Below the pieces are notes generated by a model. That model saw nothing but the letters and a program-made list of their open reading frames with translations, did no database searches and had not been told where the DNA came from. Positions 24,945 to 34,030 of a stretch of 64,000 nucleotides of DNA are shown piece by piece. The first letter of the stretch is position 1, and each line of letters starts with the position of its first letter. Location: positions 1-64,000 of the forward strand of contig NZ_JACHIJ010000002.1 of assembly GCF_014203115.1 (NCBI RefSeq), in the 5' to 3' direction. The stretch is from Afipia massiliensis. Its GTDB lineage: Bacteria; Pseudomonadota; Alphaproteobacteria; Rhizobiales; Xanthobacteraceae. Made by a program: the position numbers and the translations under genes.

Positions 24945-25352
24945 TTAGTGGCCTCGAAAAGTCATTTTCTGGGACGTCGCGCCCGACCTTCGAGAATCGA
25001 AAAGCCGCCGCGCAATCACACCGGCAATGTCATGTGGGGCCCATATGAATTCGAGATGGAATCTGGGGTGATCTCATTAGCGGGACATAAATGACGGCAA
25101 TCAGTTACGTTCGCCAATAACGCCGCCCAGAAGCCGTGTGGCGACCGCCTGAGCCGGGTTTTCCGCTCAACATCATGGAAAAACAGATATATTTATTTCG
25201 CAAAGTATGCGGTTTCGATCGAGGAGCTGGGTGAGTGAGTGGGCGACTCTCGTTGAATCGACGACCTAATTCTCACTCGGTGTGTTTCGGGCCTGTTGCT
25301 GACGGGCGGAAGCCTAGATCGTTGCTTCATCAGACCCCGACAACGCAACACG
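24945..25352. other. 408 bp without a gene, holding a candidate left attachment site
   Basis: No frame of note. GCGGTTTCGAT at 25209-25219 recurs at 33912-33922 on the far side of the recombinase operon, and CAAAGTAT at 25201-25208 recurs inverted at 33890-33897. These may be the left end of the mobile element that starts with the helicase gene. Confidence 0.4.
25209..25219. repeat. candidate attL, 11-bp direct repeat with 33912
   Basis: GCGGTTTCGAT here is identical to 33912-33922. The two copies bracket the helicase and recombinase operon exactly. By chance an 11-base match between two such intergenic stretches is expected in only about 1-2 percent of cases. Confidence 0.4.
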
Positions 25353-27851
25353 CTATTCCGAGAGTGCTTCTGTGAAGCGCACCGAAGAACCAATTTGTTG
25401 CTCATCTAGCATGTCCTCCAGTTGGAGCCCCGATGCTCGATTGGTTGTTTTCGGAGCCGTGTGGATCGCGTTGCTGATCACGTCGGGGTCGCCGATGAGC
25501 ACGACCGTTTCAACGGCTCGCGTTGCGGCTGTGTAGATCATCGTCCGATCGAGAAGCCGAGACCGCGCGATCGGCAGGATGACGCGCCTGAAGGCCGATC
25601 CCTGCGCCTTGTGGACGCTGATCGCCCAGCCGTGAGTGAGCTTCTCGAGGTCGGCCGCCAAGATCGCGTCTGCGGTGCCATCGTCGAAGGCTACCCACGC
25701 GCCATCCTGATGAGGGTGCCTGATCGTCCCGATAGCCCCGTTCATGAAGCCGGAGTAGGTCGGTTCGTTCGTAAGCGGGTTGAGCACCACGTTGCCGTCC
25801 CGATCGCGGAGAGGGGCCTTGCGGTAGTCGTTCTTCAGCCACAGGATCTTTGACCCGGTGCTCAGCCCCCAATCCCGAATGCGGGCTTGTCGGGCCATGT
25901 ACTCTGCCTCGATACATTGGTTGAGCGCTTTTGCGCCGGCAGGGCCGTTCTTCGTCTGAGTGAGGATTTGCACGTCGAGAGCGTGCAATCGCTCTGCCTG
26001 ATCAGCATCCGGAGCGGGACCGCACATTGCTCGGAACACCTGCAGGGTTTTCGAGGCGATGTCGTCGTCTTGCCTGGCCGGCACGAGGAACACTCCCGGC
26101 GCAAGTGGTGCTGTCTCGTTGAAGGGAAGGAACGAGGGGACGGCGCCCGCCCGGATCATCCCGCCGGCACACGGGATGCCCGTCTGATCTGCTTGCCGAT
26201 GGATGACGTCGAGAGCCACGCGCGGGATCGCGTCCGCGGCGACCATCGAGCGGAACAAGATGCCTGGGCCGATCGGCGGAAGCTGGGCAGGGTCGCCGAT
26301 GAAGACGAGATCGACCTCGACCGGGATCTGCGAGAGGATGCGGTACACCGAGGGCGTGTCCAGCATGGACGCCTCGTCGAAGATCATCAGCCCTCGTTGA
26401 AGTCGCCGGCCGCCACTTTCGATCTGATGAAGGAAGCGAGCGATCGTGGTCGCTTCCTTGCCAGTCGCCTCGGCAATTCGCCGAACGGCCCGTCCGGCCA
26501 GGGCGACCTGGGGGTACTCGAAGCTGCTTTGCTCAGCAGTGGGGAGGACGGCACGGCGCGCTTCCGACGCCCGGAGAACGGCTCTGACGACCGTGGTCTT
26601 GCCGGTCCCGGCGCCGCCGGTGATGACGCTGACCGCGCTTGACGTTGCCATGAACACAGCTTCGCGCTGCAGCTTCGTGAGTTGGTAGCCGACCTCCGCC
26701 TCGACCTTGCTGATGGCATCGTCGATGGCTGCGGGATCTATAGGCTCGACGTCTCGCGTGAGCCGCTCGCGGAAGAACCGCTCGAGCTCGTGCTCCATGA
26801 ACCAGCAGGCGCGGGACTGCAGCAGGTCGTTGCCGATCGCAATGATCCGCCCGGCCTGAATCGCAATCGCCAGGGCCTGCCCCGGGTCGCCGCTCCAAGG
26901 CGTTGCAAGGTGTTTCACCAGCGGCAGGATCGACGAGGAGGGCGCTGCCATGTGACCCTGGCGGAAGCGGACCGCGAGGGCCTCCTCGACGACCGAGCAC
27001 AGACGCCGCTCGTCGTCGAGCGGCAGGCCCAGGCGTAATGCCCGGGCATCCACTTCGGCCCATGGCTCAAGGAGCGTCAGGGCGTACGGATCCGCTTTAA
27101 TCCGCTCGATGGCCTGCAGGCCCCAGAGGCTTGCGGTCGCGCCCGCCACGCGCGGCGAGACGCCATATCGATCAAGCCATCGGAACACCTCAACCTCATC
27201 GGCGAGGAGCCCGAAGCCATCAACGATCGCGGCCGCTTTCTCGGGCCCGACGACGGCGGCGATCGGCGCCAGTTGTCTGGCTTGCACGTGCGCGTAGATG
27301 TCGTCTCCGAGGGCCGACCAGAGCTTCTCCGCCGTCGACCAGCCGACCCCGACAAAACGCTTATCGGTCGCCAGATAGCGGATCAGCGCCCGACCCTTGG
27401 GGATGAGCGGTAGCGCTATATCAGCGTAGAGTTGAAGGCCGTACTCGGAATGTACGCGCTCGGTCCCAGTCAGCCTCCACGATTCACCCACGGCAGGATC
27501 CCGGGCACTGATCTTAGCTGGCGTAACCGCCCGCCTAAGAGCTCCCGCTTCGTCGCGGCCGATCAGGATCAAGCCGCCGTATCCACTTCGATGTACCGAC
27601 GTGATGCAAAGTTCGAACGATGACGGGGAAGTTTGCTCGGGTCGCTCACCAAGGACCAGACCGGGCGTCTGATCCCCTAAGCCACTCCGTCGCTTTTCAG
27701 CCCCTGCCACAGCGCTCGTCTCTCCGTTCACTGCGGCCACCCACGCCGTACCGGCCGCGGGTCCCTGCGCCTCGTTCACTGCGAGCCGCTCGCTGTGGCT
27801 TTTCGGGGCTGCGACGGAGCGGCTCCGAGGACCAGACTTCTCACCCAGCAT
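25353..27851 (-). CDS. RecD2-like ATP-dependent DNA helicase (SF1B), 832 aa
   Basis: The order matches RecD2: an N-terminal beta-rich part (VHRSGYGGLILIGRDEAG), helix-hairpin-helix-like RFVGVGWSTAEKLW, then helicase motifs: Walker A GGAGTGKTTV (near residue 411), motif II MIFDEASML (near 488), motif III GDPAQLPPIG (near 517) and motif VI VHKAQGSAFRRV (near 748), a UvrD_C_2 end. RecD2 is a 5'-3' helicase of repair and of some mobile elements. Its ATG overlaps the stop of the preceding gene (TAATG), so it is the last gene of the recombinase operon. An N-terminal extension of about 80 low-complexity residues is unusual. Its role may be processing recombination intermediates of the island. Confidence 0.85.
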   Translation of the reverse strand: MLGEKSGPRSRSVAAPKSHSERLAVNEAQGPAAGTAWVAAVNGETSAVAGAEKRRSGLGDQTPGLVLGERPEQTSPSSFELCITSVHRSGYGGLILIGRDEAGALRRAVTPAKISARDPAVGESWRLTGTERVHSEYGLQLYADIALPLIPKGRALIRYLATDKRFVGVGWSTAEKLWSALGDDIYAHVQARQLAPIAAVVGPEKAAAIVDGFGLLADEVEVFRWLDRYGVSPRVAGATASLWGLQAIERIKADPYALTLLEPWAEVDARALRLGLPLDDERRLCSVVEEALAVRFRQGHMAAPSSSILPLVKHLATPWSGDPGQALAIAIQAGRIIAIGNDLLQSRACWFMEHELERFFRERLTRDVEPIDPAAIDDAISKVEAEVGYQLTKLQREAVFMATSSAVSVITGGAGTGKTTVVRAVLRASEARRAVLPTAEQSSFEYPQVALAGRAVRRIAEATGKEATTIARFLHQIESGGRRLQRGLMIFDEASMLDTPSVYRILSQIPVEVDLVFIGDPAQLPPIGPGILFRSMVAADAIPRVALDVIHRQADQTGIPCAGGMIRAGAVPSFLPFNETAPLAPGVFLVPARQDDDIASKTLQVFRAMCGPAPDADQAERLHALDVQILTQTKNGPAGAKALNQCIEAEYMARQARIRDWGLSTGSKILWLKNDYRKAPLRDRDGNVVLNPLTNEPTYSGFMNGAIGTIRHPHQDGAWVAFDDGTADAILAADLEKLTHGWAISVHKAQGSAFRRVILPIARSRLLDRTMIYTAATRAVETVVLIGDPDVISNAIHTAPKTTNRASGLQLEDMLDEQQIGSSVRFTEALSE

Positions 27852-28258
27852 TAAGGAAGCTTCCCCGTTTCAGTCATCAGGGCGTTCATACGACGCCAAC
27901 GTTCCGATTCTCGGCGGAGCGAGGCGTTCTCGGCCATCAACCGCAGATTCTGCGCCTCGAGTTCGGCTCGGTCTGCGTCCACCTTGCCCTTCTGCTCGCG
28001 AACCGCTTCGGCCTGCTCCAGCCGGGTCAGGTTCACTTTCCGGTCGGCTGCTTCGGCCTCATCGAGAATGCGGGCGCACCGTGGATTGGTCTGGAACACT
28101 TTGCGATCGAAGCCGCAGGCCTTGGCGATCGCGCTTCGATTGAGTTCGACACCATAGCGGGGGAGAGGCTTCCCGCGCTGACCTTCCAGGTATTCGATGA
28201 GCGCATCGACGTTCTCGTGGGCGAGCTCGATGCCGCTCTTGCCGGTCCCCTTGGCCAT
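27851..28258 (-). CDS. small HTH plus coiled-coil protein of the mobile element, 135 aa
   Basis: Residues 35-60 (LNRSAIAKACGFDRKVFQTN) look like a helix-turn-helix, and residues 70-125 form a heptad-rich coiled coil (LTRLEQAEAVREQKGKVDADRAELEAQ). Such proteins bind DNA and dimerise through the coil, like KfrA or the TnpC-type proteins of three-recombinase elements. It overlaps both neighbours (TGATG upstream, TAATG downstream). Confidence 0.6.
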   Translation of the reverse strand: MAKGTGKSGIELAHENVDALIEYLEGQRGKPLPRYGVELNRSAIAKACGFDRKVFQTNPRCARILDEAEAADRKVNLTRLEQAEAVREQKGKVDADRAELEAQNLRLMAENASLRRESERWRRMNALMTETGKLP

Positions 28259-28713
28259 CAGGGTTGCTCCGAGAGTGGATGACGCACGACCTCAGCCCGC
28301 GGGAGGGCGCCCATGCCGTCCAAGGCATCGATAGCCGCTTGGTACTTGTCGAAGAACCGCTTCCAGGTGCCAAAACCGCCCATCTCCGCGGTCGACAGGA
28401 TCATCGCCCGGTGAGACGCGATCAGGAGCTCCTTCTCGCCGCGAAGGCGCTCGATCTCGCTGTTCTTCAGAGAGATTTGGCGTTCCAATTCAACGCGCGA
28501 CGACTTGCTCGATCGCTCGACAGCGGACCGGATTTTGTCCTGCCGACCGGCGTAATCCGCAACGAGCGCCTTTCGCTTCTCGTTTCGGGTAATGTCGGTC
28601 GGATACTTGAGGACACCGCTCATTCGGCGGATCACGGCCCGTGCTGTGATCTTCTCGTCATCGACGAGCATTGCCTCAAGCACCTCTTCAAGACGAGCAA
28701 TTTTGTCGGTCAT
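28258..28713 (-). CDS. small coiled-coil accessory protein of the recombinase operon, 151 aa
   Basis: An N-terminal helical region (LEEVLEAMLVDDEKITARAV) precedes a long coiled coil (about residues 55-90: VELERQISLKNSEIERLRGE) and a C-terminal FFDKYQAAIDALDG. In three-recombinase islands (GInts) the fourth gene, ginD, encodes a small accessory protein needed for integration, and TnpC does this in Tn554; this gene lies at the same place and is about the same size. That equivalence is inferred from position only. The start ATG at 28713 overlaps the recombinase stop (ATGA). Confidence 0.55.
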   Translation of the reverse strand: MTDKIARLEEVLEAMLVDDEKITARAVIRRMSGVLKYPTDITRNEKRKALVADYAGRQDKIRSAVERSSKSSRVELERQISLKNSEIERLRGEKELLIASHRAMILSTAEMGGFGTWKRFFDKYQAAIDALDGMGALPRAEVVRHPLSEQP

Positions 28714-31070
28714 TGGCCATCCTGCAAGAAGGTCACTGTATCGAGAACGGAGGTGCCGCGTCGGCTCTCCGCAGATTGATAGAGATCCGGGCCCTCGGGG
28801 AACGGCTTCTCGCCCGGCCGCGTGTCGATTGCCGTCAAAATGTTGGAGAGCCGAGTTTGCGCGTGCGCAATCTGGTTGTGCCATCCGGCCGAGCGTTGAT
28901 GCTCGGGCAGAGCTTCCAGCGTCTTGACCGTTCCGGTCATACGGTCGCGCAGGCGTTCGAGATTCTCCCGTTCCTTGTCAACGTCCGACCTGGCAAGGTG
29001 CCTGCAGCCGTTGAAGCACTCGAGGTGCTTGGGGCAGGGGTCGACGGCGAAGCTGTTTACGCAGAACCCATACGGCGTCACATGCAGGCCGTCCGCCTCG
29101 GCGTTCAGGTACTCGAACGCCACGTCATCGCCGTGTTGGCGTTGGATGCGACGGAACTCGTCAATGATGGGGCCGCTGACCTTGTTGGCGGCAATCAAGC
29201 GATAGACTTGCCGCGCGTTGCCGCTAAGGGCTTCCTCGGCCGGCTCGGGGGTATCGATGTTGGCCAGATCTTCCGCCAGGCTCCGATGATCATACTCATA
29301 GCTCTGGGCGACGCTCCGCCGGTTGAAGCGCTTTGTGATGATCGTGTCGGCAACACCTAGCCGGAACAGTTCTGTCGTTTGCAGATGTCGAAGCGCGTGG
29401 GGATTGAGACTGAGCTGGCGGTCCTGCTCTGAGGCGCCATACCGGCGGAAGATAGATCGAGAGTCTTCCAGCGCTCTGTTTATGTCTCGTGTAGCTATTC
29501 GACCAAATGCGAAGTAGCGGGTCGGATCCAGCAAGCCTTCGTTTCGTCCCTCGATGAGGTTTCGGATCGGCAACAGGAACATCAGTTCGTGGGGATGTAT
29601 CGAAGTCCCGTTGGTAAGCGTCGCGGGCTGCAAATCGGGGTGTATTGTCGGGCTAGTGGCCCGCATGCAGGCCTCGACCTCGCCAACACGCAGGAAGGCG
29701 CGCTTCCACTCGATGCGGCCGTCGACGATCTCGTCGCCGGTGCTGTTTCGGATGGCGATCTGGCCGGCCTTGCGTCGTCCGAGCCAGAAGACGGATGTAG
29801 CTTGGAAGGGGGCATCGCTGGCGAGCTGAACAGCACGGATGTCCTCGAACACGCGGGGGTCCAGCGTTTTTCGATATCTCGCTTCTAGTTCGGCCGGTAC
29901 CTCAGCCTTCGAGAACAAAGCGCTGCCGCTCATCCGGGTAAACATCTCGTGCGCCGGGACCAGCGCCTCCGGGGGATATTCCGGGATCAAGCGTCCGGTT
30001 TCGATTTGCAGACGCAGTCGTTCCCGCACGGGGGCGGTTAACTCCCGGACGGTCGAGAGTGTCTCCAAAACGAGCTCCTCGAACATCGGCGGGACATGCT
30101 GGGCGTTTTCGTACAGACACACGCCATCGATGGTCTCGTCTTCGACCTGCTTCTCGGCGAAGTGGCGCAGCATGAGAGATCGCGATGTGCCGCCCTTGCT
30201 GCCGGCAGGTAGGCCGTCACCGTCGACGTATTCGCGCCATCGGATACAGTCGAACGGCAGCAAAACGATCTCACCGACGCGAAGCCCAGAGATCACGCCG
30301 AGCTTCAGGATTGCGAAGCGGATCACGTCGGAGAATGTTCGGGGCGTTTCTGTGAAGATGATCCGTATCATCTCCCAGAAGGCCTGTTCTTCGGGAAGTT
30401 TCGCGGCGGATTTGCGCTCTGACAACGTGCTCCGAAGGCGACTCGCACTGAACATGCCTCCCACGCGTGAGCGTTCGCCCCGCGTGCGCTGGTGCCCTTC
30501 GCGTGTCTGCTCCCATTCAAGCGGTAGGCAGAACCGGGCAAGAGCAGGGATGTCAGCCAGGTGCTGATCGTCCAGTTCGTTCCGGACTGTCATTTCAAAG
30601 TTGAGCGCATTCTTGCCGGACTCACCAGCAAGGAGGGCTGCGTTATACGCTTGCCGTACCTGGTCTGGCGTGACGGCCCACGGCTGCGTATCGCGCGCGG
30701 CCGAGGCGAGGTGCCTGATCCAGCGGGCCGGCACCATCGCGCTGGCTGGCTTGTTTTTCCGCACCAACAGATGATGGATGATTATGGCGAGGTACAGGTC
30801 TCGCCATGATTGGCTCATCGGTGCGGGCTCGAGCTCGGGTTGCCCCATCTGTCGCCTGACTTCGTTCAGGCGCTCAAAGGATCCCTCGATGACGCCAAGG
30901 TCGGTGACGTAGATGGAAGGTGGTGGGATCATTCCCACCAGAGCGGTCAAATCCCAGCGGCTTGCCTTGGCGATCTTGCCGGTGTCATCGCACGGCAGAT
31001 CCCACTTGAGGCCACGATCAGCGGCCAACACCTTGGCGGAAGCCACGTAGGCTGCGAACGCCGCGTTCAT
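28710..31070 (-). CDS. large tyrosine recombinase (third of three), 786 aa
   Basis: Tyrosine-recombinase motifs are ISGLRVGEIVLLPFD with Arg I (near residue 261), LNPHALRHLQTTELFRLGV with HxxR (near 557) and RSVAQSYEYDHRS with the likely nucleophile tyrosine (near 590). About 550 residues precede Arg II, far more than in phage integrases, and the C-terminus has a cysteine cluster (near 650-680; CVNS, DPCPKHLEC, GC) that may bind zinc. This size and layout matches the largest recombinase of GInts and Tn554-like elements. The ATG at 31070 overlaps the preceding gene (ATGA). Confidence 0.85.
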   Translation of the reverse strand: MNAAFAAYVASAKVLAADRGLKWDLPCDDTGKIAKASRWDLTALVGMIPPPSIYVTDLGVIEGSFERLNEVRRQMGQPELEPAPMSQSWRDLYLAIIIHHLLVRKNKPASAMVPARWIRHLASAARDTQPWAVTPDQVRQAYNAALLAGESGKNALNFEMTVRNELDDQHLADIPALARFCLPLEWEQTREGHQRTRGERSRVGGMFSASRLRSTLSERKSAAKLPEEQAFWEMIRIIFTETPRTFSDVIRFAILKLGVISGLRVGEIVLLPFDCIRWREYVDGDGLPAGSKGGTSRSLMLRHFAEKQVEDETIDGVCLYENAQHVPPMFEELVLETLSTVRELTAPVRERLRLQIETGRLIPEYPPEALVPAHEMFTRMSGSALFSKAEVPAELEARYRKTLDPRVFEDIRAVQLASDAPFQATSVFWLGRRKAGQIAIRNSTGDEIVDGRIEWKRAFLRVGEVEACMRATSPTIHPDLQPATLTNGTSIHPHELMFLLPIRNLIEGRNEGLLDPTRYFAFGRIATRDINRALEDSRSIFRRYGASEQDRQLSLNPHALRHLQTTELFRLGVADTIITKRFNRRSVAQSYEYDHRSLAEDLANIDTPEPAEEALSGNARQVYRLIAANKVSGPIIDEFRRIQRQHGDDVAFEYLNAEADGLHVTPYGFCVNSFAVDPCPKHLECFNGCRHLARSDVDKERENLERLRDRMTGTVKTLEALPEHQRSAGWHNQIAHAQTRLSNILTAIDTRPGEKPFPEGPDLYQSAESRRGTSVLDTVTFLQDGQ

Positions 31071-32596
31071 GATGCGGTGCTCTCCGCTTTCAGACTCTCG
31101 ACCACCCGGCGAACTCCGTCGAGCGTGGTGCGGAGTTGCACAAAGGCCGGCGATTGCTCGTTGTTGCGTGAGGCCCCAGCGAACTCGAGGACCACGGGTC
31201 GCAGGTCCTTGAGGACCTGCTCGTGGATCGCGTGGTCCCGCAGCGGCATAAAGCGTCGGCATGTGTAACAAGACAGCACCGGATTCTTGCTACAGACGCT
31301 CTGTCCGACCTCGCAGCCGCCGATCCCGGCGATCGGGATCCCGTGTGGGACGCCGCCGATCTGCTTGTTGGCCGGAAGCCGGAGCAGCATTTCTTTGTCG
31401 ATCGACCGGGTGCGGGCGATCCTTGCCACATTGGCGTAGATCGGAGAGATCGCCAGCGCCTGGTTCACTCGCTGAGCTTGCGTCGGAGAAGTGTCGAAGT
31501 AGACGTTCGCGGTCCGGTAGTCGGCGTGCACCATGAACTCCGAAAGAGCGATGTGGGCAACACCGGCGTCCGCAAGGCGCTGAGCGGCCGTGTGGCGCAG
31601 ATCGGTCGGTGTCCATGGTTCGCCGGTCAGGTTCTCACAGAGGTCCGTTAGGACGTCACTGATCTCATCTGGCGTGAGTCTAAAGAGCAGCCGTTCGGGC
31701 GTTTCTTGATTGATCGGAAGGCCGTTATCGAGTCCGCAGCGACGAAGAAGCTCGATAAACAGCGGTGCCCATTCGCGCTTGATCCGCCGGGTCACACGCA
31801 CGCGCTTTTTCTTATCGCGCTGTTTGGCGGCGATGACGGCCACGTGCACCGCGCCGGTCGAGAACACGCGAACGTCAGCGACCTCTATCCGGGCGATCTG
31901 CCCAGGTCGGAAGGCGTACTGGTAGGCGATCACCAGGACACAAGCATCCCGGAGCTCATTGCCATCCACTGCTGCATTGGATTTAGATAAAAGTCCGCAG
32001 ATCTCGTCGATGTAGTCGATGATGGCCGCTTGATGGTCGAGCGGCAGGAAGCATTCGCCCGTCCGGATGACACGGTGCTGGTCGCGCTTGGGGCTCGTCA
32101 GTCTGCGAACAAGCGGCGTGCTGGCCGGATTCCAGTGTCCAATCGACAAGCTGCAGAGGGATTGAAGCATTGCCCGTAAAGCTGCGGCCTGACCTGGGGT
32201 CGATTTTACGCGGGCGAAGACATCCCAATGCGAGCGGGCATCGAAGATTGGAGCCGAGATCAGCGTGTTGAGGGACCAAAGACCGTTGTCACGTACGTAC
32301 GCCGCGAGGCTGCTCGCATAGGACACAACGGTGTGCGGGTCATGACGCGCAAACCAATCGACTAACACGTGTTTTGCGACGTGGGAGGCCAATCCATACA
32401 GACTGAACTCGATGTTTTGACGTCTACCATCCAAAGTGATGGCCACAGACAGCGCTTCCGACCAGTCCCTCAAAGATCGGACTTCGTCGGCAAAGTCGTC
32501 GTGATATCGGACGAGCGCCGGGAGAGGCGGCAACGACCCGACGATGGCCGTCATCGCGGTCTCGAGGTCCTGATCGGCCTTTCCTGCCGCAATCAT
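31067..32596 (-). CDS. tyrosine recombinase (second of three), 509 aa
   Basis: Arg I lies in YQYAFRPGQIARIEVADV (near residue 228), HxxR in TPTDLRHTAAQRLADAGV (near 330), and the nucleophile in MVHADYRTANVYFD (tyrosine near 365). Its C-terminus holds clustered cysteines (GGCEVGQSVC, LSCYTCRRFM), again a possible zinc site. It has the extended N-terminal domain of island recombinases. ATG at 32596 overlaps the first recombinase by four bases. Confidence 0.85.
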   Translation of the reverse strand: MIAAGKADQDLETAMTAIVGSLPPLPALVRYHDDFADEVRSLRDWSEALSVAITLDGRRQNIEFSLYGLASHVAKHVLVDWFARHDPHTVVSYASSLAAYVRDNGLWSLNTLISAPIFDARSHWDVFARVKSTPGQAAALRAMLQSLCSLSIGHWNPASTPLVRRLTSPKRDQHRVIRTGECFLPLDHQAAIIDYIDEICGLLSKSNAAVDGNELRDACVLVIAYQYAFRPGQIARIEVADVRVFSTGAVHVAVIAAKQRDKKKRVRVTRRIKREWAPLFIELLRRCGLDNGLPINQETPERLLFRLTPDEISDVLTDLCENLTGEPWTPTDLRHTAAQRLADAGVAHIALSEFMVHADYRTANVYFDTSPTQAQRVNQALAISPIYANVARIARTRSIDKEMLLRLPANKQIGGVPHGIPIAGIGGCEVGQSVCSKNPVLSCYTCRRFMPLRDHAIHEQVLKDLRPVVLEFAGASRNNEQSPAFVQLRTTLDGVRRVVESLKAESTAS

Positions 32597-33807
32597 GCGT
32601 CGCTCCGATGAACTGAACGACGCAGAGCGTCGACAAAGCGATCGAACTTCTCATTCCAGACTTCGGCGAGTTCGGTCTCGAAGTATGCTCGTGCATAGAG
32701 GCGTGGCATGTCGGACTCGGGAGACCACCCAAAAAACAGGCGGAGCTTTTCCATTGCACGGTCTAAGCCGTCGCCGGCGTCCTGATAGCGCCGCATCCGG
32801 ACAACCGCGCATGTGTGTCGCAGGTCGTGGCAGGAGACGCTCGAAAGCCTTTGCTTTTCGAGGGATCGGCGGGCCGTTTCCGAGAGCGCTTCTGTTGCAG
32901 TCTCGAAGATCTCGTTCATGGCCCGCAGTGACAACGGCCGGCCTTTCTGGGACATCAGCAGGTGCGGATAATGCGTTCGCCCTCGATAATTCTGGACGTA
33001 CATGTCGGCCAGCAGCGGAAGCTCCTGGGGAACGGGAAGCTGCCGCCTTGAGAACGCGGTTTTCAGCCCTGGCTCCTCGTACCGAGGGTCGTCGTCAGGA
33101 GCAGTTTCGACATCGATCCACGTGACGCTTTGGCCGGATGTCGGATCGGTGTCGTCCTTGATGGCGTTTGCCGACAGCAACGCGGCCTCGCCGCGTCGCA
33201 GACCCAATCGAAGCAGCAGCATGAAGACCAACAGATTGCGCCAGCGCAGCGTTTCGGTCTTGAACGGGTTGCGATCCGAAGCGGGATCGAAGATCGCATA
33301 TAGGTCGTCGATGACGGTCGGCGGCAAAGCGCGGATTGGAGGAGGGGCGCGAACGGGGGCCGGGCTTAACTGGCTGTACAGGCGCTCCAGGCGCAGCAGC
33401 CGGGTCTCGATTAGCCCTGCCCGGATTCCAGCGGACGAACTGCCGTGCCGCAAGATGTCCATCACGAAGGCCAGCGCCGAAGCCCAGGTCTGAGATCGAT
33501 CCGCACCATCAACAGCGGCCTCGTTCCTGAGCTGGGCCAAGAAGCCCATCAGGACATCCTCGATCACATCGAAGTCCAGTTCTGCCAGAAGCTGGTCGAG
33601 GCAGTCGGTACCTCGCTGGCGCTGCGCGGACTCGTAGAGCCGTCCCAGTGCGCCTAGGTGCCGCAGCTTGGTTGATCCGTCCAGCGACCCCTTGAGCACA
33701 TCGATCCAGATAGATGCCCAGAACCTCGGAACGCCAGATGGTCCAAGGCAGACCCGGCCGACAAGCGACGACGGAACAAGCGCTGATCGAAGGTTACTGG
33801 TGGACAT
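32593..33807 (-). CDS. tyrosine recombinase (first of three), 404 aa
   Basis: Arg I is in LLRLGLRRGEAALLSANA (near residue 200), the HxxR motif in SCHDLRHTCAVVRMRRY (near 325), then LRLFFGWSPESD and YARAYFE with the candidate tyrosine (near 370). It is the most phage-integrase-like of the three. I start at the ATG at 33807; a TTG at 33873 would add 22 residues. It opens the six-gene minus-strand operon and has the repeat-rich presumed attachment region just upstream. Confidence 0.85.
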   Translation of the reverse strand: MSTSNLRSALVPSSLVGRVCLGPSGVPRFWASIWIDVLKGSLDGSTKLRHLGALGRLYESAQRQRGTDCLDQLLAELDFDVIEDVLMGFLAQLRNEAAVDGADRSQTWASALAFVMDILRHGSSSAGIRAGLIETRLLRLERLYSQLSPAPVRAPPPIRALPPTVIDDLYAIFDPASDRNPFKTETLRWRNLLVFMLLLRLGLRRGEAALLSANAIKDDTDPTSGQSVTWIDVETAPDDDPRYEEPGLKTAFSRRQLPVPQELPLLADMYVQNYRGRTHYPHLLMSQKGRPLSLRAMNEIFETATEALSETARRSLEKQRLSSVSCHDLRHTCAVVRMRRYQDAGDGLDRAMEKLRLFFGWSPESDMPRLYARAYFETELAEVWNEKFDRFVDALRRSVHRSDA

Positions 33808-33870
33808 GGACGGACCGCTGCTGTGGGCGTACCGACTAAGGTCCGGTGCACGATGGCTATTCGCAACGGC

Positions 33871-33948
33871 CAAAACCGCCTTTCAACAGATACTTTGTTG
33901 CAGCGGAATCAGCGGTTTCGATTAAAAAGCTACAGTTTCAAAACCGCC
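33871..33948. repeat. repeat cluster at the right end of the recombinase element, candidate attR
   Basis: CAAAACCGCC occurs twice in direct orientation (33871 and 33939), 68 bp apart, with the near-complement AGCGGTTTCG at 33911 between. GCGGTTTCGAT at 33912-33922 is identical to 25209-25219. Multiple copies of a 10-11-bp unit next to the first recombinase gene are what one expects of core and arm binding sites of a tyrosine recombinase. Confidence 0.45.
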
Positions 33949-34030
33949 TGCCCATTCCATAATATACCTTATGCGAATCCGAGGCGTGGCCAAGCCTGAC
34001 CACGGATACGGGTTTGCAGCTGTCTCCACC

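Follow-up and report, generated by a model that had tools for sequence, protein, structure and literature searches.

A compact six-gene mobile element with a RecD2-like helicase, probably inserted at the chromosomal dif site of Afipia massiliensis

Why should a RecD2-like helicase be the last gene of an operon that opens with three tyrosine recombinases, and to what kind of element does that operon belong? The question arises from contig NZ_JACHIJ010000002.1 of Afipia massiliensis (RefSeq assembly GCF_014203115.1), whose first 64,000 nucleotides, the whole stretch analysed, are called the window here. A first-pass annotation had placed six genes at 25353-33807, likened them to genomic islands of the ginABCD type (GInts) and to Tn554, and seen in the helicase an unusual part of an extended recombination machine. 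Our analysis showed that the six-gene operon is the entire content of a GInt-type element in the window, and this element is very probably a compact, cargo-less mobile element of the GInt, SE and Tn554 kind, with six backbone genes, inserted at the chromosomal dif site. The coordinates above hold the operon, but the element extends further, covering 25203-33953 plus the 6-bp junction spacers (8.76 kb; outer limits 25197 and 33959). The dif target, the exact ends and a conserved hairpin are features beyond the earlier account.

The ends were defined from an exact tandem pair, shared termini and empty sites (loci compared are numbered L, genomes G), as follows:

33955..33977, minus strand: chromosomal dif TTCGCATAAGGTATATTATGGAA, spanning the left junction (from its genus-wide occurrence and the GC-skew switch in G402)
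33954..33959, minus strand: attL 6-bp spacer TGGAAT (shared with L046 and L048, empty sites of the same genus; TGGAAC in L044)
33808..33953, minus strand: A-side terminus with the core motif GCGGTTT, and operon upstream region (resembles the termini of L016, L017 and L020)
25203..25352, minus strand: helicase-side terminus CACTCACTCACCCAGCT...AACCGCATACTT (a similar terminus in 10 further distinct copies)
25197..25202, minus strand: attR 6-bp spacer TGCGAA, a foreign footprint (unlike TGGAAC/TGGAAT of the empty sites)

The tandem pair lies on the Bradyrhizobium ottawaense plasmid pBoOO86, where two identical head-to-tail copies repeat with a period of 8754 bp. Their terminal motifs, TGGAATGG...GCGGTTT and ACTCACTCACCCAGCT...AACCGCATACTTTG, recur in the window, the element ends carry inverted core motifs, and the inner joint (ACTT-TGGAAT-GGAAA) holds the left-flank 6 bp and is the joint expected of a circle. 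Two sister plasmids have one match place each for recombinase gene B by tblastn, and one of them (L017) was read. The L050 contig (1-8744) starts and stops at element termini, without terminal overlap, which suggests a repeated or circular copy in that genome.

Uninterrupted sites were found for three copies. Those for the window copy come from the same genus (G402, G420 and G364; loci L044, L046 and L048); the L020 copy is matched by plasmids L096 and L097, which carry uninterrupted TTATGGAACTAGGGG with flanks 98.5-99.7% identical, and the Bradyrhizobium copy by L100, with TTATGGAATATATTCC and flanks 98.8% and 77.9% identical. L099 and L101 share the left flank and dif-like site of L008, with the right flank unmatched, and were not counted as empty sites. 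Two copies, those of the window and of Bradyrhizobium, have unlike spacers; each has the target 6 bp at attL and six foreign base pairs at attR (TGCGAA and TGACAC, respectively). This is the rule described for SE and Tn554 elements (PMC10214605; the papers cited here are represented by excerpts), and it is in line with the staggered exchange over 6 nt put forward for GInts (PMC5385486). In the remaining copies with both ends, the right-end spacer is likewise TGGAAC, so they are uninformative for the footprint. GInts are described as flanked by imperfect direct repeats of 10-17 nt (PMC5385486, excerpts); the L020 copy has TGGAAC at both ends, and the two spacers of the window share TG and little more.

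We conclude that the insertion site in the window is the chromosomal dif, at which replicated bacterial chromosomes are parted from each other. The sequence TTCGCATAANNNNNNTTATGGAA, allowing one mismatch, is present in 28 of 29 genomes of the genus (exactly once in 20, two or three times in eight), and its reversed control gave no match. Along the 4.5-Mb contig of G402, sampled at 20 spaced points, the GC skew turns from positive to negative between 3.70 and 3.93 Mb and back between 1.45 and 1.68 Mb; the site lies at 3.851 Mb, and across it the skew goes from +0.021 to -0.028 within 20 kb. The arms of the genus site presumably resemble those of the E. coli dif. Most of dif is kept at the window insertion.

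The same pattern, CATAA-N6-TTATGGAA(C/T) with CATAA altered at no more than one position, stands directly outside the A-side end in all 12 flanked copies (the window, L006, L008, L009, L010, L016/L017 and L018-L023; L050 has no flank). The motif CATAA-N6-TTATGGAA is absent at the inner tandem copy, and the dif-like motif is therefore not part of the element. Over about 293 kb of these loci, both strands together have 26 matches to the palindromic pattern at one mismatch or fewer, and many of these are insertion sites counted twice. Most of the relatives sit on plasmids, and there we term the sites dif-like on sequence grounds. The claim of dif targeting is confined to the close branch: no dif-like site was found beside gene A in two more distant loci, L012 and L014, and none in the divergent L065-L071. 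Three other distant loci on Cupriavidus, Caulobacter and Paraburkholderia plasmids (L011 at 10585, L013 at 10593 and L015 at 10573) have a dif-like sequence upstream of gene A and are likely further cases of dif-like insertion. A further dif-like site, its centre different (TTCGCATAATGGCCGTTATGGAA), lies elsewhere in the Afipia massiliensis genome (G000:C5:182367-182389) and may belong to another replicon or be due to chance.

The six genes between these ends are:

32593..33807, minus strand: gene A, tyrosine recombinase of 404 amino acids (PF00589 at its cut-off; motifs R, HxxR, W (GWS) and Y)
31067..32596, minus strand: gene B, tyrosine recombinase of 509 amino acids (PF00589, E 3.3e-12)
28710..31070, minus strand: gene C, large recombinase-like protein of 786 amino acids (PF00589 stretch below cut-off)
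28258..28713, minus strand: gene D, small protein of 151 amino acids in the GinD position (likeness to the fourth gene of four-gene relatives)
27851..28258, minus strand: gene E, 135 amino acids, VPA1267-family-like (NF040697, sub-threshold)
25353..27710, minus strand: gene F, RecD2-like SF1B helicase (TIGR01448; 785 amino acids from the conserved start)

The six overlapping same-strand genes, with the sizes and five junctions previously described, were all reproduced among the open reading frames of the window: ATGA for A/B (32596-32593), B/C (31070-31067) and C/D (28713-28710), TGATG for D/E (28260-28256) and TAATG for E/F (27853-27849). The identification of three recombinases also stands, with PF00589 clear in B, exactly at the cut-off in A (27.1 bits) and below it in C (24.2 bits). 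The motifs of A are retained among relatives, and its 404-amino-acid frame is also found in L009, L016, L020-L022 and L050. B shows the R, TxxR, H or Q, and Y positions; C retains HxxR and has Y in the window, with H at the aligned position in some relatives. D is 33-38% identical by tblastn to the fourth gene of L011, L012, L013 and L015, and matches that of L014 by blastp. The NF040697 match of E (46.5 bits) is under the cut-off of 90; judged by eye from the alignment, a helix-turn-helix-like part is followed by a coiled-coil-like part. RecD2 enzymes translocate 5' to 3'. The label "RecD2-like" for F holds as a resemblance, since its best solved relative is RecD2 (3e1s, E 7.9e-29), and Walker A (GGAGTGKTT) and DEAS were seen by eye; its TIGR01448 score of 356.5 bits stays under the NCBIfam RecD2 equivalog cut-off of 500. 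The open frame of F reaches 27851, which would give 832 amino acids.

Whether the helicase belongs to the element depends on how constantly it accompanies the recombinases. A tblastn search with B matched 79 plasmid records, 13 of them at 55% identity or more (H1-H13), and the same 13 records head the helicase search (H41-H53), with B and F within about 6 kb. Loci were compared from 11 of these 13 records, together with L006 (Rhizobium oryziradicis) and L050, which also carry the helicase. The order A-B-C-D-E-F is kept in the compared loci (in L050 by open reading frames); L009 is without D and much of C. The first-pass annotation had proposed to look for the six-gene order in other genomes, where an unlinked helicase would count against its claim; linkage held, and the claim was not refuted. 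Both ends were located in 11 copies (the window, L008, L009, L010, L016/L017, L018, L019, L020, L021, L022 and L050); the right end was not found for L006 and L023. Only about 150-200 bp separate F from the right end in six of the 11 (150 bp in the window), and the other five (L008, L009, L020, L021 and L022) have cargo of 1.4-4.8 kb beyond F. Because cargo, when present, lies beyond the helicase, we assign the helicase to the backbone.

It is unlikely that the helicase and E are cargo of an ordinary GInt, lying next to ginD by chance. Such an arrangement would fit the excerpted description of GInt cargo, which begins at the ginD stop (PMC5385486), and four-gene relatives without E and F do exist: in L011-L015, five of the other 66 records, A-B-C-D are 30-43% identical to those of the window, and none of the five, read over 25 kb each, had a match to E or F. 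F also correlates with A-C less than these do among themselves (A-F 0.761 and B-F 0.628, values reached by 110 and 97 of 5040 permutations). However, E and F co-diverge (r 0.964, 7 copies) and occupy the same place in all close loci read (the window, L006, L050 and 11 plasmid records), the helicase is present in the other two records too, any extra DNA lies beyond F, and the E/F pair recurs with diverged recombinases. NF040697, searched against 299 genomes of the phylum, matched 10 times in nine genomes, three times over the cut-off, and not at all in 14 controls; a RecD2-like helicase adjoins E in eight of the 10, including that of the window (in L069 about 1.5 kb off), and none was found beside E in the other two (L072 and L073). 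In the other seven loci with E and helicase, recombinase matches of the genes upstream came from tblastn or fell mostly below the cut-off, and those in L068 and L069 were weak; in L065, B exceeds the cut-off of NF041502. The helicase is thus unusual in that it is absent from the five four-gene relatives and unmentioned in the GInt and SE papers searched; in the rhizobial branch, however, it is constant, and its pairing with a small protein recurs beyond that branch. An extended machine requiring the helicase would be in keeping with this genomic pattern.

The branch appears to be rare in whole genomes, as B was matched in two of 397 genomes of the order, including that of the window; a scan of genome contigs, which detects close relatives only, gave one locus. 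A phage origin was rejected: no relative of B was found in 50,697 phage records, and a close-relative scan of viral contigs gave none. The Afipia massiliensis genome also holds a second, divergent element (G000:C3, L065 10019-16633) with recombinase-, E- and helicase-like genes, in which E and F overlap by 4 nt and next to which no dif-like site was seen. Beyond the element, L009 (19738-21187) and L019 (19040-19306) have a second right end or left-end-like sequence, and L008 (23923-24305) has a fragment of gene A beyond its right end; copies therefore seem to accrete at one site, with decay.

The junction of E and F carries two further features:

27708..27710, minus strand: conserved helicase start, GTG in the window (ATG in 11 of 11 aligned relatives; presumed to be the start used)
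27681..27823, minus strand: conserved 143-nt sense-strand hairpin holding the helicase start (covariation, folding)

The TAATG overlap of E and F, present in the window, proved not to be conserved and to be restricted to this copy. None of the 11 alignable relatives has a start codon at the E stop in the helicase frame; seven have a stop in that frame between E and the conserved start, and in four (L008, L010, L019 and L022) the frame is open past the E stop. In 10 of the 11 relatives, a 41-codon leader opens at the E stop (ATGA; GTGA in L019; L016 has no leader) and ends 20 nt ahead of the conserved helicase ATG, beside GGAGAG. In the window, a 1-nt difference fuses both frames, and the leader continues into the helicase. 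The conserved start lies 138-140 nt downstream of the E stop, within the hairpin, and in-frame GTGs about 20 and 30 nt upstream of 27710 are possible alternatives. E and F overlap by 4 nt in the divergent loci L065-L068 and L071. A programmed frameshift between leader and helicase was weighed because the first ~30 residues in the window are encoded out of frame in relatives; it is not favoured, as the helicase has its own conserved start, with the leader ending before it, and divergent relatives start the helicase at the E stop.

The hairpin is better conserved than coding DNA: it exceeds the helicase body in 28 of 28 pairs from eight copies (97.2% against 73.3% identity between the window and L016). 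Its folding beats every one of 200 shuffles, both in the window (z -6.5) and in L008 (z -3.9). In an alignment of 12 sequences with 57 pairs, 98.7% of the cells are paired, with two-sided changes at eight pairs, against 31-49% paired cells and 0-1 such pairs in slid controls; four of five covariation measures were reached by none of 500 shuffles, for a structure derived from the alignment used for its test and among related sequences, which can exceed shuffles. On the sense strand, the main hairpin has 44 G-U cells, no A-C cell and seven other unpaired cells, a pointer to action on the sense strand; a double-stranded cruciform is not favoured for the same reason, and a role as sense-strand single-stranded DNA may be considered. 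The hairpin reaches the gathering score of no Rfam family, and the lone match (E 3.2) is outside it. A dispersed repeat was ruled out, as a search of 72,556 plasmid records matched the hairpin sequence in 14, every one rhizobial, with 80% or more of the query covered in 12, and its covariance model matched two genomes, including that of the window, among 397 of the order. We propose the hairpin over the helicase start as a candidate new regulatory RNA.

These compensatory pairs also bear on whether the element is a dead relic, with genes no longer under selection and the hairpin as a by-product. Several relatives are indeed broken, and the window leader has its 1-nt change, which would suit a relic; all six open reading frames of the window are nevertheless open, A and B retain their recombinase motifs, and the identical tandem copies and the terminus-to-terminus contig suggest recent activity in relatives, so that we consider decay of this kind distinctly improbable.

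Several observations weigh against our reading. The mobility of the element is deduced from DNA comparison, the tandem pair could be an assembly artefact, and the attB of the window was reconstructed from other species, with TGGAAC in G402 against TGGAAT at attL. Although all 12 site sequences are distinct, L008 and L023 share flanking genes, so fewer than 12 events may be represented. L009, L010, L019, L020, L022 and L023 each have a broken B, C or F, and most of the hairpin region is gone from L023; the fifth covariation measure, the number of further pair types, was ordinary (184 of 500 shuffles as high). To these is added the looser covariation of F with the recombinases noted above. A role of the helicase in transposition is conjectural, and four-gene GInts excise and integrate in assays, according to the excerpts of PMC5385486.

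Comparison with published systems supports the earlier likening to GInt and Tn554 machinery, through gene order, recombinase sizes, the small D, the 6-bp footprint, the empty sites and the tandem pair. Shared with GInts are the single operon at one end, made up of three recombinase-type genes with a small fourth one, a 6-nt staggered exchange, and cargo, when present, toward the other end (Bardaji et al. 2017, PMC5385486, excerpts), where excision and integration are described as depending on all four gin genes; the element of the window differs in adding E, the helicase, a structured leader and the dif target. It has A-B-C-D in the GInt order, as judged by architecture and intermediate relatives rather than by the published GinABCD sequences, and 150 bp in place of the 2.5-70 kb of cargo between operon and 3' end in the tripartite GInt structure. 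Because it lacks that cargo and adds genes, we treat it as a variant of the GInt kind and not as a plain GInt. SE elements share the 6-bp rule, recombinases with a small protein likened to TnpC, and a proposed copy-out model; they differ in order, intA-tfp-intB-srap, as described in PMC10214605 (excerpts), where the large non-canonical recombinase is second and not third as here. Tn554 shares two tyrosine recombinases, TnpC and the 6-bp footprint, and differs in having three genes, no GinC counterpart and no helicase listed in the same excerpts, and RIT elements have three recombinases of 315-410 amino acids (PMC10214605), against 404, 509 and 786 here. The words "helicase" and "dif" are absent from the text of PMC5385486, and "helicase" from both SE texts, including PMC10214605.

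We take VPA1267 to belong to the gamma-mobile-trio (GMT) islands. The VPA1267-like gene E recalls these islands, and B and A weakly match GmtY (12.0 and 10.9 bits, cut-off 340), with no GmtX or GmtZ match listed. In the open-licence literature, no paper came up that describes a helicase as a fixed part of GInts or places GInt-type elements at dif, and nothing usable on RecD2 or VPA1267 with mobile elements or on alphaproteobacterial dif.

That host XerC/XerD integrated an IMEX at dif while the operon serves another role is very improbable indeed: all 12 flanked copies have dif or a dif-like site as their target and IMEX such as LME-1 rely on host Xer at dif (PMC9765430, excerpts), but the Xer central 6 bp are left unchanged, with the spacer TGGAAT beginning 3 bp into the arm beyond them, no dif-like site lies at attR, and the ends bear their own core motif GCGGTTT in an element that encodes its own recombinases. 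Integration would thus be the work of A-D and not of host Xer, because the junction lies outside the Xer central region and leaves it intact.

For a mobile element of the GInt, SE and Tn554 kind, A and B, with C and D, would exchange strands between attL and attR to give a circle whose joint holds the left-flank 6 bp. Another Xer-type site would then take up the circle; attL would retain the 6 bp of the target, and attR would receive the 6 bp carried by the circle. Less certainly, E and the RecD2-like helicase may act after strand exchange, displacing or processing DNA in a copy-out step, in which the helicase could conceivably displace the exchanged strand. Similarly, a ribosome leaving E and reading the leader might open the hairpin so that the helicase is made, and the hairpin may thus set the amount of helicase. 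In a more speculative extension, which we think unlikely, the element would be a self-contained copy-out/copy-in transposon: the recombinases would join one strand, the helicase would peel it off, and the hairpin would act both in the mRNA and in the single-stranded intermediate, where it might, for instance, mark the start of the second strand. The element would be at home in the Xer site, where it would ride on the chromosome-dimer resolution region and spread to the dif-like sites of plasmids.

The movement of GInt, SE and Tn554-type elements is still unresolved (PMC10214605, excerpts). A minimal natural copy of 8.8 kb, whose ends and empty site are known and whose backbone includes the helicase as a constant part, offers a small system for tests of copy-out. 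Homing on dif and on plasmid dif-like sites with its own recombinase trio would explain how the element settles on chromosomes and large rhizobial plasmids while leaving genes unbroken, and the element could serve as a marker of dif in this order.

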